This document shows, in pieces, positions 1 to 6,659 of a DNA stretch of 58,503 nucleotides (positions are counted from its first letter, which is position 1; the number at the start of each line of letters is the position of its first letter). Source of the stretch: Alloprevotella sp. (GTDB taxonomy: Bacteria; Bacteroidota; Bacteroidia; Bacteroidales; Bacteroidaceae). Where the stretch lies: the NCBI GenBank assembly GCA_017476545.1, contig JAFUZP010000042.1:1-58503 (forward strand). Direction: 5' to 3'. A program made the position numbers and the translations under genes. Under the pieces are notes generated by a model that saw nothing but the letters and a program-made list of their open reading frames with translations, made no database searches and was not told the DNA's origin.

Positions 1-3000
1 AAGCTGGCCGACTACAACATCCAGAAGGTAAGCACCCTTCACCTCGTACTGCGCGTGCGGGGCTACGCCCTTTGGCTGGGCGGCGTCCTTGTAGGGGAGG
101 AGAACCATGAGGACATCCTGGGCGACGGCACGGCCAGCTTTGACCCGGAGACAAACACACTCAGCCTCAGCGGAACCAAGGTTACGACGGGCGCATACAA
201 TCTCGGCGAAGGTGGGTCTGCGTACCCTGTCGCCTTGTATGTGGGCGGCGAGATAGAGACCCTGACCATCCACCTCACCGGGACGAACGAGTTGGCCGGC
301 AACGTTGGGTACGGAATCTACGCCGAGAACAACCTGTCCTTTACCGGAACGGGAAGTCTCTACTGCTACGGCTCGAACGCTTTCACGAACGAATTTAACG
401 CATCTGCCACTGGGATTAGCGCGAAAGGCGATATTACTGTCGCGTCGGGCGACGTTACCGCTGAGGCCAGCTCGAGTCTTTCCCAGGCTGTCCGGGCACG
501 GGGCGCACTCACCGTAAACGGCGGCAGCCTGACCGGAACGGCGAGCGGCAACTATAGCTATGGGATAAGCGTTCAAGGCGCACTCTCCGTGAACGGCGGC
601 AGCCTAACCGGCATAGCCGGAGACTGCGGTATTCTTGTTTATGGCGCGGCCCAGCTCACCGGCGGCACCCTGCGCGGCGAATATGACGCGGACAAACTAC
701 CTGCCTCGTACGCCTCTGCAGACTATCGCTGCGGCTTCTGGTGGAAGGAAACCTTCGCGATAGACGCGTCCCACCAGGAGTTCATCATCGTCAAACCTGC
801 CCTTTATTCGTATGCAGACTACCGGTACGGCCGCACCGTCACCGAACAGGCCACGGGCAACCCGGCGGCCGTCGTACATATCGCCGCGCTGGAACCATGC
901 AGCGTCACGGCCACGAAGGTGTGGGACGACGGCGACAACGTCGATCGCCGCCGCCCGCAGTACACCTGGCTTACCATCAAGCGCACCGACAGGCAGGATG
1001 TCACGGACATTAACGGGAACGCGGTAGCCACCACCGTGCGGGTGGACGGCTGGGCCGGCACCAACTTTTCCGTCGAGTGGGAGGATCTGCCGACGTACGC
1101 GCTCACCAACGGCGAATGGACGCCCGTTGAATACACCGTGCTGGAGACCGACGAGGACGGCATGGCATGGACACCCGGTGGCTACACGAAGGTCATCACT
1201 GGCAACATGGCGGACGGTTTCACCGTAACCAACCGCTACACACCGAAGCAGACGGACATCATCGTCACCAAGCTATGGGCCGACTACGACAACGCCGCAG
1301 GCCTGCGCCCGCAGGAGCTGGAGTTACACCTCGACAAGAAGTCGTTCATAACTTCTACGGCGGACGACACAGACATCAAGGACGTGGCACCGACCCGGCT
1401 CATCAACGAGGCCAGCGGCTGGAAGGCCGAATGGCGCGGACTGCCCTATAACGAAATAACCAGTTGGGGCATCGGGAGGGACATCCGCTACGTCGTCCGC
1501 GAGGATGCCGAAGACTACACCGGCGCGCTCACCGAGGGGGATGCCGGCCTGCGGGTCACGCTCCTCTGGGACGAGGGTGCCGAGAAACCACAGACGCTCA
1601 CGGCGACTCTGTTAGATGAAACAGGCACTAGCTACAGCTTCACGGCAACGCTCAGCGAGGAGAACGGTTGGACGGCGCAGTACGACGGCATCAACCCAGC
1701 TATAGCGAAAGGCTACAGCTTCGGTATTGACTGGACACCGAAGCAGGAGGCTGTCTGCCGCAAGGTGGTGAGCGTGGTACGTAACTACATGCTCACCAAC
1801 ACGCTGATTCCCGTCATCAACGTAAACGTGGACACGCCCCGCTGCGGCACGGAGGTATGGGTCGAGGACGGCTACTGGGACACAGCTGGTTACACCAACC
1901 CTGCCGCGCAGCAGAACCGCCCTACCGGCAACGTACAGACCGAGGGGTGGGAACTCTACGAGAACAAATACGGCGCAAGCCTGTATTATGACGGTGTTGG
2001 GGTCTGGGATGTAGTCGTCTCCCCCTTCGCTGGCACCCTTGCCGGCGGGAACAGCTACCTTGTCCGTGGCGAGTGCACGCCCTTGGAAGGCACGCTGGTA
2101 GCCGCCACGGCGAGGGTCTTTGTGAACGGAGAGGAAGTTCCGGCGGAGCGCGTCCGCGTGAACGCGGCGGGCCGCGTCGAATTCATGGCGGAGGTTAAGG
2201 CCGCACACGACTTGCAGCAGACGGAAGGCGAGGAGCCTACCTGCGAAGCCGGGGGCACGTTGCCATTCTGGACGTGCGCGGGCTGCGCCAACCGCTTCGC
2301 GGACGAAAACGGCGAGACGGAGATTGACGAGCCACAGACACTCGAACCGCTCGACCACATGTGGGGCGAACCGACCTACCAGTGGGCCGAGGACTACAGC
2401 ACGGCCACAGCACTGCGCATCTGCCAGCGCAATGCCAGCCACGAGGAAACGGAGACCGTAGAGAGTACGTCCGAGGAGACCCTGGCACCCACCTACAAGG
2501 CCGTGGGCGAGCTGACCTACACCGCCGTATTCACCACCCCGGGCTTTGAGACGCAGACCACGACGGTGGATATCCCCGCACTGGAGCCCTACGGCATAGC
2601 AATCAACGAGACGAACTTCCCCGACCCGGCATTCCGCCAGTACATCGCCGAGACCTTCGACACCGACCCCGACGTGGAGGGCTGGCTTATCCCCGAGGAA
2701 ATAGAGGCCGCACGGCGCATGGACGTCAGCGGACTGGGCATCAGCGACCTCACGGGCGTGGAGCACTTCACCGCACTCGAAGCGCTGGACTGCTCGCAGA
2801 ACAGCCTGACGGAGCTCAACCTGGCGCAGAACGGGATGCTCACGGAGCTGTACTGCTACCTGAACGGCATAGCCGACACCGCCATGGACGCCCTGATTGC
2901 CAGCCTGCCTGCACGTGAGGGATGCGTGCTCAGGGTCATCGCACCCTACGTGGAGGGCGAGCAGAACAGCTGTATGATGGTACAGGTGGGCGATGCCAGG

Positions 3001-3222
3001 CAGAAAGGCTGGGCACCGTACTATTGGAGCGGCACGGCCCTGGGCGAAGGCAACGGCGAGTGGCTGGAATACGAGGGCGACGACGTGCTGACCGGCATCG
3101 GCGCGGTGGGTACGGTGCAGACACCCGACACCTGGTACATGCTCGACGGCAGGAGGCTCGGCGGCAACCCGGCACAGAAGGGCGTACACATCCGCAACGG
3201 CAGGAAAGTCGTGGTGAAGTAA
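1..3222 (+). CDS. Large surface protein with ubiquitin-like segment, beta-helix, Cna-B and LRR regions (5' partial)
   Basis: The frame is open from base 1, so the true start lies outside the window; the GTG at 55 is not a credible start. Residues 1-22 align without gaps to ubiquitin 55-76 and include ADYNIQKVSTLHLVLRVRG (17 of 22 identical by eye); the final Gly-Gly is Gly-Tyr. After this come beta-helix-like repeats (about 25-120 and 150-215) with a 25-residue repeat copied at bases 502-536 and 577-611. Cna-B-like domains follow (TATKVWDD near 300, VTKLWADY near 420, a weaker one near 515). A cysteine-containing region sits near 748-763, a short internalin-like LRR block near 865-980, and a tail YMLDGRRLGG...KGVHIRNGRKVVVK that resembles Bacteroidota secretion/anchoring tails. 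Likely a secreted or surface adhesin-like protein. The function of the ubiquitin part is unknown. Confidence 0.85.
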   Translation, partial: KLADYNIQKVSTLHLVLRVRGYALWLGGVLVGEENHEDILGDGTASFDPETNTLSLSGTKVTTGAYNLGEGGSAYPVALYVGGEIETLTIHLTGTNELAGNVGYGIYAENNLSFTGTGSLYCYGSNAFTNEFNASATGISAKGDITVASGDVTAEASSSLSQAVRARGALTVNGGSLTGTASGNYSYGISVQGALSVNGGSLTGIAGDCGILVYGAAQLTGGTLRGEYDADKLPASYASADYRCGFWWKETFAIDASHQEFIIVKPALYSYADYRYGRTVTEQATGNPAAVVHIAALEPCSVTATKVWDDGDNVDRRRPQYTWLTIKRTDRQDVTDINGNAVATTVRVDGWAGTNFSVEWEDLPTYALTNGEWTPVEYTVLETDEDGMAWTPGGYTKVITGNMADGFTVTNRYTPKQTDIIVTKLWADYDNAAGLRPQELELHLDKKSFITSTADDTDIKDVAPTRLINEASGWKAEWRGLPYNEITSWGIGRDIRYVVREDAEDYTGALTEGDAGLRVTLLWDEGAEKPQTLTATLLDETGTSYSFTATLSEENGWTAQYDGINPAIAKGYSFGIDWTPKQEAVCRKVVSVVRNYMLTNTLIPVINVNVDTPRCGTEVWVEDGYWDTAGYTNPAAQQNRPTGNVQTEGWELYENKYGASLYYDGVGVWDVVVSPFAGTLAGGNSYLVRGECTPLEGTLVAATARVFVNGEEVPAERVRVNAAGRVEFMAEVKAAHDLQQTEGEEPTCEAGGTLPFWTCAGCANRFADENGETEIDEPQTLEPLDHMWGEPTYQWAEDYSTATALRICQRNASHEETETVESTSEETLAPTYKAVGELTYTAVFTTPGFETQTTTVDIPALEPYGIAINETNFPDPAFRQYIAETFDTDPDVEGWLIPEEIEAARRMDVSGLGISDLTGVEHFTALEALDCSQNSLTELNLAQNGMLTELYCYLNGIADTAMDALIASLPAREGCVLRVIAPYVEGEQNSCMMVQVGDARQKGWAPYYWSGTALGEGNGEWLEYEGDDVLTGIGAVGTVQTPDTWYMLDGRRLGGNPAQKGVHIRNGRKVVVK

Positions 3223-3299
3223 ACACCCGCTACGTCCCGCCGGAGCGGCGGCAAACCTGCCAATAGCTTCGCTACAGCAGAGCCGGGGCGAAAAACACT

Positions 3300-3333
3300 G
3301 ACGGGGGTGGAGGCATTGGCCTCCACCCCCGTC
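3300..3333 (+). terminator. Rho-independent-type terminator of the surface protein gene
   Basis: A perfect 15-bp stem (3300-3314 with 3319-3333, arm GACGGGGGTGGAGGC) closes on a 4-base loop, 78 bases after the stop codon. There is no long T run, only CTTCC, so termination strength is uncertain. Confidence 0.7.
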
Positions 3334-3358
3334 TTCCGTACATCCCAGGGAACGCACC

Positions 3359-3446
3359 GTAACCCTGCGGGCAGTTCATCGTAACCCTACGGGTAGTCCG
3401 CCGTAACCCTACGGGTAGTTTTCCGTAACCCTGCGGGTAAGTTCAC
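3359..3446 (+). repeat. 22-bp palindromic repeat array A (4 units)
   Basis: Four back-to-back units start at 3359, 3381, 3403 and 3425, each exactly 22 bp. The core is GTAACCCTACGGGTAGTT with a variable 3' end. Each core carries an imperfect dyad ACCC-N3-GGGT. The same unit recurs in five other intergenic regions of this window. 22 is not a multiple of 3 and no ORF is conserved, so it is not coding. The array lies between two same-strand genes, about 190 bases upstream of the rprX promoter. The rest of the gap (3447-3636) shows GC-rich sequence and then a T-rich stretch, with no other feature. Confidence 0.85.
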
Positions 3447-3775: not shown

Positions 3776-5215
3776 GTGAAGAAGAAAACCATCTGGACCA
3801 TAGCCATCGCGATGGGCGCCTCGTTCATCGTGCTGCTCTACTTGCAGACGCGCTACTTCGAGCAAGTAGTGCGGATGCGCAGCGAGCAGTTCGCCGAGGC
3901 TGTAGGACGCGCCCTCTACCAAGTGGCCTACGAACTGGAAGAAGAGGGTGAGGCCGCACCGCTCACGCCGGAAGGCGGGAGGCAGAAACCGGAAGAGGCG
4001 TCCGGAAGCACAGCGACTGCAGCGAGCGACACAACAGCACTGACCGCACATGAGGAAACGGACGGGACAGCCCCCTATACCCCCCCACCCCGTCGCGAAC
4101 GCCGCTACGGGACAGCCGTCGGCACACAAGCCCCCTACAGCGCGGCGGGAAGCCGCACGCTGAAGGAACGGCTGGGCGGGCTGGAAGGCGACCTGGCGCG
4201 CGCGCTGCGCAATAACGGCATTGACGAGGACGGACTGGTGTACCACTACTACGTGACCGATGCCCTGGGCGACACCGTATGCCGCTGCGCCGACTACGAC
4301 GCGCGCGGCGAGGAACGCGCCTTCACACAAGTACTCTTCGCCAACGATGCGGCGGGGCGGCAGGGCGTGCTCAACATCCACTTCCCGGGCATGATGCGCT
4401 ACGTGTTCACCGGTGTGCAGTTCATCGTTCCCGCACTGCTCTTCACGTTCGTACTGCTCTGTATGTTCATCTTCACCATCTACACCATCTTCCGGCAGAA
4501 ACGGCTCACGGAGATCAAGAACGACTTCATCAACAACATGACGCACGAGTTCAAGACACCCATCTCCACCATCTCCCTCGCCGCACAGATGCTTAATGAC
4601 TCCTCCGTGACGAAGAACGAAGGAATGCTGCGGCACGTATCCGGCATTATCAATGACGAGACGAAACGCCTGCGCTTCCAGGTGGAGAAAGTACTCCAGA
4701 TGTCCATGTTCGATGAGAAGGGCGGCACGTACACCCAACGCGAACTCCGCCTCAACAAGATACTGGAGGACGTGGCCAACACCTTCCGCCTCAAGGTGGA
4801 AAGCGCGGGCGGTACAATCACCACACAGCTGGAGGCCGACGAAGACACCGTATATGGAGACGAAATGCACCTGACGAACGTACTCTTTAACCTGATGGAT
4901 AACGCCGTCAAATACAAGCAGCCCGAACAACCGCTGCACATCATACTCTCCAGTGCCAACCGCAGCGGACGCATTGTCGTTACCGTACGCGACAACGGCA
5001 TCGGCATCAAACGCGAGGACCTCAAGAAAATATTTGAAAAATTCTACCGGGCACACACCGGTAACCGCCACGACGTGAAAGGCTTCGGCCTCGGGCTGGC
5101 CTACGTGAAGAAAGTGGTAAGCTTCCATCAGGGCACCATACACGCCGACAGCGCACCGGGTAAAGGCACGTCATTCCTCATCACGCTGCCCATCCTCAAA
5201 GAGAGCAAACACTGA
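3776..5215 (+). CDS. rprX: RprX-like sensor histidine kinase
   Basis: Membrane sensor kinase, 479 aa from GTG 3776. I prefer that start because the -7 box lies at 3659-3666, which excludes the longer reading from 3638, and because the first helix follows at once (VKKKTIWTIAIAMG). An N-terminal transmembrane helix, a low-complexity periplasmic stretch and a second helix (FIVPALLFTFVLLCMFIF) precede the HisKA domain. The phosphoaccepting histidine is about residue 257 in NNMTHEFKTPIS. The ATPase domain shows the N box (LFNLMDNAVKY), DNGIGI and GFGLGLAYVKK. The partner regulator starts 40 bases downstream. Known family role: the RprXY system of Bacteroides; the signal sensed here is not evident. 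The periplasmic segment is unusually rich in Ala, Thr and Glu. Confidence 0.93.
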   Translation: MKKKTIWTIAIAMGASFIVLLYLQTRYFEQVVRMRSEQFAEAVGRALYQVAYELEEEGEAAPLTPEGGRQKPEEASGSTATAASDTTALTAHEETDGTAPYTPPPRRERRYGTAVGTQAPYSAAGSRTLKERLGGLEGDLARALRNNGIDEDGLVYHYYVTDALGDTVCRCADYDARGEERAFTQVLFANDAAGRQGVLNIHFPGMMRYVFTGVQFIVPALLFTFVLLCMFIFTIYTIFRQKRLTEIKNDFINNMTHEFKTPISTISLAAQMLNDSSVTKNEGMLRHVSGIINDETKRLRFQVEKVLQMSMFDEKGGTYTQRELRLNKILEDVANTFRLKVESAGGTITTQLEADEDTVYGDEMHLTNVLFNLMDNAVKYKQPEQPLHIILSSANRSGRIVVTVRDNGIGIKREDLKKIFEKFYRAHTGNRHDVKGFGLGLAYVKKVVSFHQGTIHADSAPGKGTSFLITLPILKESKH

Positions 5216-5255
5216 TACGACAGATACAAACCACTAACACAAAGGATAAACAAGT

Positions 5256-5957
5256 ATGAACGAGAACATGAAAATCCTCCTCTGCGAGGACGACGAGAAC
5301 TTAGGCATGCTGCTTAGGGAGTACCTGCAGGCAAAAGGCTACGAGACGGAGCTTTGCCCGGACGGAGAGACCGGCTACAAAGCCTTCATGCAGGAGAAAT
5401 TCGACATTTGCGTCTTCGACGTGATGATGCCCAAAAAGGACGGTTTCTCGCTGGCCAAGGACATCCGCCAACTGAACGAGGAGGTACCCATTATCTTCCT
5501 TACCGCCAAAACCCTGAAAGAGGACATCCTGGAAGGCTTCAAGCTCGGCGCGGACGACTACATCACCAAGCCGTTCTCCATGGAGGAGCTCACACTGCGC
5601 ATCGAGGCCATCCTGCGCCGCGTCAAGGGAAAGAAAAACCACGACAGGACGGTATATAAACTGGGCGAGTTCACCTTCGACACACAAAAACAGACCCTGA
5701 CACGGAACGGGGAGCCTGCGAAGCTCACGACGAAGGAAAGCGAGCTGCTCTCCCTGCTCTGCGCACACGCCAACGAAATCCTGCAGCGCGACTTCGCGCT
5801 CAAGACCATCTGGATTGACGACAACTACTTCAATGCGCGCTCAATGGACGTCTATATCACGAAACTGCGCAAGCACCTCAAAGCAGACCCTAGCGTAGAA
5901 ATCATCAACATCCACGGCAAGGGCTACAAACTCATCACGCCCGACCCCGAGCCCTGA
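5256..5957 (+). CDS. rprY: RprY-like OmpR-family response regulator
   Basis: DNA-binding response regulator of 233 aa. The receiver domain (about 5-120) carries the acidic pair in CEDDENLG, the phosphoaccepting Asp55 in VFDVMMPKKDG, and the conserved Lys in ADDYITKPFS. The C-terminal winged helix (about 135-228) ends with the typical INIHGKGYKL. The sequence LLREYLQAKGYE and the receiver as a whole closely match the RprY proteins of Bacteroides as I recall them. It follows the kinase by 40 bases and precedes a lipoprotein gene by 6, so all three are probably one transcript. Its regulon cannot be read from this window. Confidence 0.95.
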   Translation: MNENMKILLCEDDENLGMLLREYLQAKGYETELCPDGETGYKAFMQEKFDICVFDVMMPKKDGFSLAKDIRQLNEEVPIIFLTAKTLKEDILEGFKLGADDYITKPFSMEELTLRIEAILRRVKGKKNHDRTVYKLGEFTFDTQKQTLTRNGEPAKLTTKESELLSLLCAHANEILQRDFALKTIWIDDNYFNARSMDVYITKLRKHLKADPSVEIINIHGKGYKLITPDPEP

Positions 5958-5963
5958 CCCAAG

Positions 5964-6659
5964 ATGAAAAAAAGTATCCACACGCTACTGGCCGCCGTGG
6001 CACTCGCCACGGGGATAGGCGGCCTCACGACAGGCTGCAACGACGATGACTCCTACGCCGACGACCTCAAACGCGAGCGGAAGCAGATACAAGCCTTCCT
6101 GAAGAAAGGGGTACAGGTGACAGACCCCGAGTCCGGCACCTACTACATCAACCACCCGGCCCCGATCAACCCCATCACGGAGGAAGAGTTCTACGCCAAC
6201 GACTCCACTACTGATGTAGCTAAGAACGAGTTTGTCCTCTTCAACGGCTCAGGCATCTATATGCAAATCGTCAGGAAAGGTACGGGTAAGAAGCTGCAGA
6301 ACGGCGAAAGCACCGCCGTTATCTGCCGTTACACGGAATTTAACATCGCGGCAGACACCATTCAGTCCACCAACCTCATCCAGCAGTATGCCACCAGGCC
6401 GGAGATAATGAACGTCACGAACACGTCGGGCACTTTTACCGCACATTTCACGAGCGGTCTTATGCGCGCCGCCTACGGACAGGCCGTGCCGAGCGCATGG
6501 CTCATCCCCCTCACCTTCGTGAATCTCGGGCGGCAGGCCGCCGCCGATGAGGAAATAGCCCTCGTGCGCCTCATCGTACCCAGCCGCGAAGGGCAGGACG
6601 ATGCAAAGACAAAAGTCTATCCCTGCTACTACGAAGTGAGCTACCAGCGGGGCCGGTAG
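5964..6659 (+). CDS. DUF4827-type lipoprotein
   Basis: A 231-aa exported protein. Its signal sequence ends in a lipobox-like GGLTTGC, followed directly by NDDD; acidic residues just after the lipid cysteine act as a surface-export signal in Bacteroidota lipoproteins, so outward exposure is plausible. The body (KQIQAFLKKGVQV, then a region ending in VYPCYYEVSYQRGR) looks like the DUF4827 family of Bacteroidales, distantly like FKBP-type proteins, but no catalytic residues can be named. It starts 6 bases after rprY and is likely co-transcribed with rprXY, which hints at an envelope-stress role (inference). Confidence 0.75.
   Translation: MKKSIHTLLAAVALATGIGGLTTGCNDDDSYADDLKRERKQIQAFLKKGVQVTDPESGTYYINHPAPINPITEEEFYANDSTTDVAKNEFVLFNGSGIYMQIVRKGTGKKLQNGESTAVICRYTEFNIAADTIQSTNLIQQYATRPEIMNVTNTSGTFTAHFTSGLMRAAYGQAVPSAWLIPLTFVNLGRQAAADEEIALVRLIVPSREGQDDAKTKVYPCYYEVSYQRGR

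Follow-up and report, generated by a model that had tools for sequence, protein, structure and literature searches.

The window analysed here is a single contig of 58,503 nt (C32) from an Alloprevotella genome of 1.98 Mb in 46 contigs that is 80% complete, and it begins inside an open reading frame that is open at its 5′ end. This frame starts with KLADYNIQKVSTLHLVLRVRGY, and translation together with comparison to the human protein reveals that positions 1–66 hold the codons for ubiquitin residues 55–76, with 17 of the 22 residues identical to human ubiquitin. Using these 22 residues as a phmmer query against PDB sequences, we recovered ubiquitin chains as the top matches, with single-ubiquitin chains at E-values of about 1e-6 to 6e-6 among the best 60 of 293 matches, and this bears out the assignment made in the initial annotation. 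The profile PF00240 matches the window piece alone with an E-value of 0.04 and 16.5 bits, under its cut-off of 25.4 bits. Past ubiquitin the frame extends for another 1051 codons, and the window is otherwise ordinary bacterial chromosome, with gyrA, S1, gcvP and a two-component system among the nine open reading frames scanned. A DNA pattern made from the first 27 bases has no second occurrence within the window, a weakly informative result.

A search of the entire genome with PF00240 at E ≤ 10 returned two matches only, one being the start of the window and the other the extreme end of a second contig, C40, where the match (E 4.3e-13, 50.8 bits) lies above the cut-off. C40 terminates in MKRIHVNLRAFLLVFMLAGVWNTEAAA followed by 43 residues that correspond to ubiquitin 1–43, of which 37 are identical to human. 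Judged by eye, MKRIHVNLRAFLLVFMLAGVWNTEAAA is a signal-peptide-like leader situated directly before ubiquitin; it closes with ...NTEAAA ahead of MQIFVK, which places an export-type site exactly before Met1. This is the upstream part in which the initial annotation had asked whether ubiquitin 1–54 has any counterpart, and it does match, over residues 1–43. The two pieces are complementary, each sits at a contig end, and their reading directions are compatible. C40 breaks off after the first base of codon 44, while the sequence of C32 opens at codon 55, leaving residues 44–54 in an assembly gap from which 32 nt are absent if there is a single copy; no overlap was found between the DNA of the C40 end and that of the C32 start. 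Over all sequenced ubiquitin residues, identity to human amounts to 54 of 65. The patch residues Leu8, Arg42, His68 and Val70 are present, and the Ile44 position falls inside the gap. It is very likely, if not proven, that the C40 and C32 pieces are one gene (Table 1).

Table 1. Positions of the parts of the ubiquitin fusion gene (window coordinates unless a contig is named)
Feature	Position	Strand	Basis
Leader and ubiquitin residues 1–43	C40:14033–14243, outside the window, same genome		PF00240 match
Ubiquitin 3′ part, residues 55–75	1..63	+	translation, phmmer, human comparison
Whole 5′-open frame of the fusion protein, 1073 aa	1..3222	+	open frame 1 from base 1
Beta-helix surface module, starting YALWLGG right after Gly75	64..750 (3′ limit approximate)	+	weak Pfam match, model, paralogues
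Best of three Cna_B stretches (stalk-type)	904..1233	+	PF05738, E 4.3e-18
Leucine-rich-repeat-like region	2614..2877	+	NF033187 InlJ-like stretch, aa 872–959
C-terminal sorting-type tail YMLDGRRLGGNPAQKGVHIRNGRKVVVK and stop codon	3085..3222	+	recurrence in genome

The Gly75-Gly76 pair is absent from the window protein, in which Gly-Tyr is followed without a break by the next module. Four proteins of the same genome, encoded on C36, C39, C21 and C20, contain the first part of this beta-helix unit without ubiquitin (E 6e-11 to 7e-4), and in the alignment their unit opens with [YF]-D-L-[WHY]-V-G-G behind other N-terminal modules, which in two of the paralogues are repeats of the type 'MFNGCSSLTSLDLSGFNTSNVTNM'. 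In the window the unit opens with Y-A-L-W-L-G-G immediately after Gly75, so that, by the start motif of the paralogues, Gly-Tyr represents a module junction. Ubiquitin thus appears to end at Gly75 and to occupy the slot that other modules take in the paralogues. The initial annotation had read Gly-Tyr as standing in place of Gly-Gly; the sequence itself stands, but the tyrosine is better regarded as opening the next module than as a substitute for Gly76. The four ubiquitin-less paralogues (L119, 1501–2274; L120, 1501–2280; L121; L122), from this Bacteroidales genome, carry dockerin-like repeats at their ends, and in the two that were scanned PF00404 is slightly under its cut-off in L119 and above it in L120.

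For the beta-helix module, a Cthe_2159 Pfam match over aa 105–225 is weak and under cut-off, an AlphaFold2 model contains short regular strands from aa 81 to 230 with block pLDDT of 62–94, and no PDB fold match was obtained at E ≤ 0.001. All three Cna_B stretches detected with PF05738 lie in the fusion ORF. The leucine-rich-repeat-like region matches NF033187 with an E-value of 7.9e-07, far under the cut-off of that model, and is homologous to parts of other proteins of the genus; at E ≤ 1e-10, homologues of the window passenger in the genus were found only for this C-terminal repeat and tail part, in 3 of 57 other genomes. The C-terminal tail recurs at 30 places in its own genome at E ≤ 0.1, its own copy counted, and the same genome encodes SprA, the type IX translocon (C12:49187–56398, 2672 bits). 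PF18962 and TIGR04183 gave no match to the tail at E ≤ 1. The tail is probably a type IX secretion signal. These modules support the earlier view of a fusion into a large bacterial surface protein, distinct from the free secreted ubiquitin BfUbb.

Within the genus, PF00240 exceeds its cut-off in 1 of 58 genomes, which is the genome of the window itself, and three others give sub-threshold matches (E 0.07–0.09). With the own genome counted in each case, the cut-off is exceeded in 6 of 399 for the family sample and 3 of 393 for the order sample, and matches at E ≤ 1e-6 occur in 6 of 395 for the phylum sample. Four loci of the family sample (L007–L010) begin with a leader and full-length ubiquitin, and a fifth, L011, is a partial match only, inside another protein. 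PF00240 scores the full-length relatives L007–L010, L103 and L112–L117 at 65–107 bits. L009 has the layout of the window protein, namely leader, ubiquitin, passenger and a tail with the end GVYIRNGKKVIVK. In L007, a Prevotella-type fusion on the minus strand, the frame changes after ubiquitin, and passenger and tail go on in another frame. The window ubiquitin shares 56 of 61 compared residues with that of L037, a Coriobacteriaceae bin, and 52 with human; the figures within the window's own family are 45 for L013 and L014, 44 for L016 and 40 for L009. Because it is nearer to sequences from other phyla than to those of its own family, the window's ubiquitin was probably acquired separately from the family's modules.

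A scan of a species-genome collection yielded 303 encoded relatives, the best 80 of which were kept; these were found through peptide patterns in residues 1–16, which inflates conservation in the set, most of all in that stretch. Together with 10 loci from IMG/VR and four from the family and order searches, 94 loci were examined. Twelve of them, including four of the IMG/VR loci, were set aside by eye as eukaryote-like or leaderless, and 82 bacterial-looking relatives remain. Gly-Gly is present in 10 of the 12 set-aside loci and repeated ubiquitin motifs in three. A simple leader rule, which demands a cleavage-type site directly before Met1, was passed by 71 of the 82 and by none of the 12, a contrast that arises partly by construction, as a missing leader was one reason for setting a locus aside; the 11 failures include visible leaders that the rule missed. 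The residue before Met1 is alanine in 69 of the 82. Gly-Gly is kept in only 8 of these relatives, three of which consist of ubiquitin alone and end there (L024 from Sphingomonas, L042 from Dyella, and L093). By this loss of Gly-Gly, the bacterial modules would mostly be incapable of conjugation.

The record titles of these relatives name Prevotella, Xylanibacter, Ruminococcus, other Clostridia, Akkermansiaceae, Fibrobacter, Sphingomonas, Dyella, Rhodoferax, Methylotenera, Rhodobacter, Prochlorococcus, Cohnella, Pedobacter and the archaeon Methanothrix, although many are metagenome bins and single taxon labels may be wrong. Three plasmid records match the L008 ubiquitin, one of them closely (Ruminococcus albus 7, annotated 'ubiquitin family protein'). 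Among phages, the first 300 aa of the window protein found two weak matches, both from residue 22 on and hence outside ubiquitin. Passengers were scanned in 71 of the 82 relatives, and the 25 of 51 families listed include the autotransporter beta-domain (19), IPTL-CTERM (4), List_Bact repeats (3), SLH (2) and Por_Secre_tail (2); many passengers are without a recognised anchor. Different lineages therefore appear to present the same ubiquitin tip by unrelated anchoring routes. A goat-ileum Ruminococcus bin contains a leader-like stretch, ubiquitin and a type I dockerin (L067, 5753–6220), a combination that could plug into a cohesin scaffold.

In 31 of 32 fusion pairs with alignable passengers, ubiquitin residues 1–72 are more similar than the passenger, with a median dN of 0.07 for ubiquitin against 0.61 for the passenger; these pairs share members and are thus not independent, and in 21 of them one or both parts have a saturated dS. 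For the remaining 11 pairs dS is finite in ubiquitin and passenger alike, and the two values differ by no more than about threefold, apart from one near-identical pair (L101/L102). Representative values for ubiquitin and passenger are 1.41 and 1.50 (L019/L022), 0.20 and 0.18 (L039/L079) and 0.34 and 0.44 (L014/L015), and the extremes are 0.11 and 0.32 (L025/L043) and 0.85 and 0.42 (L040/L084), ubiquitin dS being the lower in 8 of the 11. This similarity of dS in both parts argues that ubiquitin is not in general a recent replacement and that protein change has been held back; the module in the relatives thus appears to be under strong purifying selection.

Across the 75 pattern-found domains, residues 1–72 are near human (0.97 at lysines, 0.86 at 'other' positions), and conservation declines to 0.33 over residues 73–76. 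In 14 divergent domains from the profile and paralogue set, from which L103 and L117 are excluded, residues 1–72 are lower still and residues 73–76 reach 0.13. The initial annotation had looked to a conserved Ile44 patch for support. With core and patch residues taken as generally described, the patch exhibits no excess conservation over other non-core positions (P = 0.145 for the pattern-found domains and 0.70 for the 14-sequence set), and this expectation was not upheld. The Prevotella-type relatives have drifted, seven of them being identical to human at 45–55 of 76 positions, and L010 is without Ile44. The beta-grasp fold that had also been proposed as a check was recovered in one relative, L016, whose model has block pLDDT of 74–92 over the ubiquitin region and finds ubiquitin as its best PDB matches, with TM-scores by target against single ubiquitins mostly of 0.88–0.99; beyond ubiquitin this model is of low confidence.

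Ubiquitin is commonly presented as a hallmark of eukaryotes, being a normal protein of animals, plants and microbial eukaryotes. The closest known counterpart of the window's module is BfUbb (gene ubb) of Bacteroides fragilis, the target of which, according to work from 2024, is said to be a peptidyl-prolyl isomerase. BfUbb comes from the same order, has a leader for signal peptidase I that stops exactly where ubiquitin residue 1 begins, is extracellular, and is without the C-terminal glycine for conjugation (PMC3352274, PMC5705921). It differs in being a free secreted protein of 76 aa that is 63% identical to human ubiquitin, whereas the window's ubiquitin would form the tip of a protein well over 1000 aa in length. 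Eukaryotic polyubiquitin and ubiquitin-ribosomal protein fusions belong to the same family (PF00240) over residues 1–72, but the bacterial modules are exported and have mostly lost residues 73–76, and would be neither processed nor conjugated in the eukaryotic manner. Where passengers and anchors were recognised, they are ordinary representatives of known groups, such as autotransporters, type IX cargo, and SLH, IPTL-CTERM and dockerin proteins; what sets the fusions apart is their N-terminal module, a eukaryote-type ubiquitin. Ubiquitin-like domains also occur in bacterial conjugation operons that encode poly-Ubl, E2 and JAB proteins; these are conjugation-type systems, unlike the fusions with their export leader, single ubiquitin copy and missing Gly-Gly (PMC11354881). 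The 2017 report on BfUbb refers to B. fragilis as 'one of a few bacteria' with eukaryote-like ubiquitin (PMC5705921). The secreted ubiquitin of B. fragilis was already known, as was at least one annotated plasmid gene, that of R. albus 7; in the open-access literature, with subscription journals mostly outside the search, we found no publication describing anchored fusions of ubiquitin in different bacterial phyla.

We propose that the product of the window gene is an exported modular surface protein that would consist, in order, of the leader, one ubiquitin at the mature N-terminus, the beta-helix unit, Cna_B stalks, the leucine-rich-repeat-like region and a type IX-type sorting tail. A C-terminal anchor would hold ubiquitin at the outer tip, where, not being conjugated, it could serve as a displayed ligand that binds its partner non-covalently. 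The partner would most likely be a protein with which eukaryotic neighbours (host cells, or ciliates, amoebae and other grazers) recognise ubiquitin, which would make the tip a mimic of eukaryotic ubiquitin, and bacteria of many phyla would have placed the same tip on different surface anchors. The signal-peptide-like leader, the ubiquitin, the modular passenger, the loss of Gly-Gly and the purifying selection in the relatives can be read at the level of sequence, and we are nearly certain of this anatomy. A role as displayed ligand is fairly probable, since it explains export, the mature N-terminal position, the many anchors, the non-conjugatability and the held sequence together. That the partner is eukaryotic is a plausible but more tentative suggestion, made because a partner built for eukaryotic ubiquitin best explains the retained eukaryote-like sequence; we consider the proposal as a whole, including the mimicry, to be evenly balanced. 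BfUbb inhibited ubiquitination in HeLa extract (PMC3352274), and a secreted bacterial ubiquitin can therefore engage eukaryotic machinery in vitro. Against mimicry stand the lack of special conservation of the Ile44 patch, the drift of the Prevotella-type relatives and the free-living habit of some carriers. The role suggested in the initial annotation, a decoy for host deubiquitinases, found no direct support.

A broader generalisation would be a cross-phylum class of surface proteins, a 'ubiquitin coat', in which a eukaryote-type, non-conjugatable ubiquitin at the tip is kept under eukaryote-like purifying selection and engages the ubiquitin-binding proteins of eukaryotic neighbours, with BfUbb as a specialised free offshoot; we regard this as possible but doubtful. 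What matters in any case is that bacteria from many phyla carry a ubiquitin module on surface anchors that are unrelated, and that its sequence is conserved whereas those of the passengers are not. Should the tip engage ubiquitin-binding proteins of eukaryotes, it would constitute a new route of contact between bacterium and eukaryote; if it acts on bacteria, the weapon known as BfUbb would no longer be confined to one species but be shared by many. In both cases, such strong conservation without a conjugation system gives a new way to ask why the ubiquitin surface is so constrained.

An antibacterial function is the rival that survives best, although we consider it unlikely. The tip would be a weapon like BfUbb, binding an essential envelope protein of competitors and, being anchored, acting by contact. 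BfUbb, the relative with a studied function, with its leader and its ubiquitin lacking the terminal glycine, is reported to inhibit 13 of 40 B. fragilis strains (PMC5705921), short passenger-less forms comprising only leader and ubiquitin exist (four tandem genes in Pedobacter, two in G1123), and in Prevotella-type relatives the domain has moved away from the eukaryotic sequence, as it has in BfUbb. Yet bovine ubiquitin is inactive on B. fragilis according to the same report (PMC5705921), which argues that antibacterial activity does not explain a kept eukaryotic sequence, and most of the fused modules found, in an admittedly biased set, are eukaryote-like. Moreover, among 576 neighbouring ORFs of 75 loci, 11 clusters span at least three loci, and none of these is immunity-like by eye or common to the fusions.

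Several minor features of the passenger-less genes and of gene neighbourhoods were recorded. The four tandem genes of Pedobacter cryoconitis (L085, about 5186–6585) are of secreted type and without Gly-Gly, ending at or just past Arg72. No recurrent partner gene was found across phyla, although five loci (L035, L039, L053, L079 and L082) share one gene about 0.2–1.2 kb upstream of the fusion; its product of about 330 aa (245 in L082) has no Pfam match in the two of five that were scanned, and the passengers are related to one another in four of these fusions. Upstream of the ubiquitin-only genes in L042, L081 and L093 (Dyella and a viral-collection contig) lies a conserved, secreted-looking repeat protein.

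Less likely still is a role for ubiquitin as a folding or stability cap, fast-folding and protease-resistant, that aids export or protection and whose surface is irrelevant. The mature N-terminal position on very different passengers accords with such a cap, as does the set of positions that are fixed in the divergent domains, which includes the structural residues K27, E34, Q41, L50, L56, Y59 and T66, with the patch residues drifting. The domain can differ from human at up to about 45% of its positions, however (42 of 76 identical in L103), and where passengers fall to 23–43% identity ubiquitin is still at 85–99%, exposed residues included; a cap has no obvious need for Lys6, Asp58, Asn60 or Glu64. 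The cap would explain the position of ubiquitin and not its held surface, for which we return to the displayed ligand.

Two readings concern the assembly. According to the first, the ubiquitin pieces on C40 and C32 belong to two different genes, or else to a single gene with several ubiquitins in tandem, at whose repeats the assembly broke. Each contig stops inside ubiquitin without overlap, and gene order lends no support to adjacency: in none of 14 congeners is the orthologue of the C40 helicase adjacent to that of the C32 histidine kinase, the two lying on one contig, 0.25–1.8 Mb apart, in five (G003, G004, G055, G056 and G057) and on different contigs in nine, a distribution that neither proves nor excludes that C40 and C32 adjoin. 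The two pieces are nonetheless complementary and the sole PF00240 matches in the genome, and the DYNI-type motif occurs once in 81 of the 82 bacterial-looking relatives, L009 having none by this pattern. With no relative carrying more than one such motif, a single ubiquitin copy is most likely for the window's protein, and the tandem reading was judged unlikely; we hold two genes or tandem copies together to be quite improbable, and retain the single interrupted gene.

Finally, eukaryotic contamination or a chimeric contig edge, which the initial annotation had raised, is very unlikely: although 12 of the 94 fetched loci do look eukaryotic or leaderless and both ubiquitin halves lie at contig ends, a bacterial-type leader precedes ubiquitin, native modules follow in frame, the passenger having paralogues and a tail that belong to this genome, the genes of the window are bacterial, a gene close to each ubiquitin piece is represented by an orthologue in all 14 congeners tested, and codon usage matches. 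GC3 is 0.81 and 0.86 in the ubiquitin pieces, 0.80 in the rest of the ORF and 0.77 in the histidine kinase, and the codon usage of both pieces is native.

Two further features were noted at the fusion gene. An open frame of 581 aa lies antisense to it (1612–3357, minus strand) and is probably a by-product of high GC3. Just downstream, a 22-bp tandem repeat, CACCGTAACCCTACGGGTAGTT, is present in 4.1 copies (3355–3446, plus strand).
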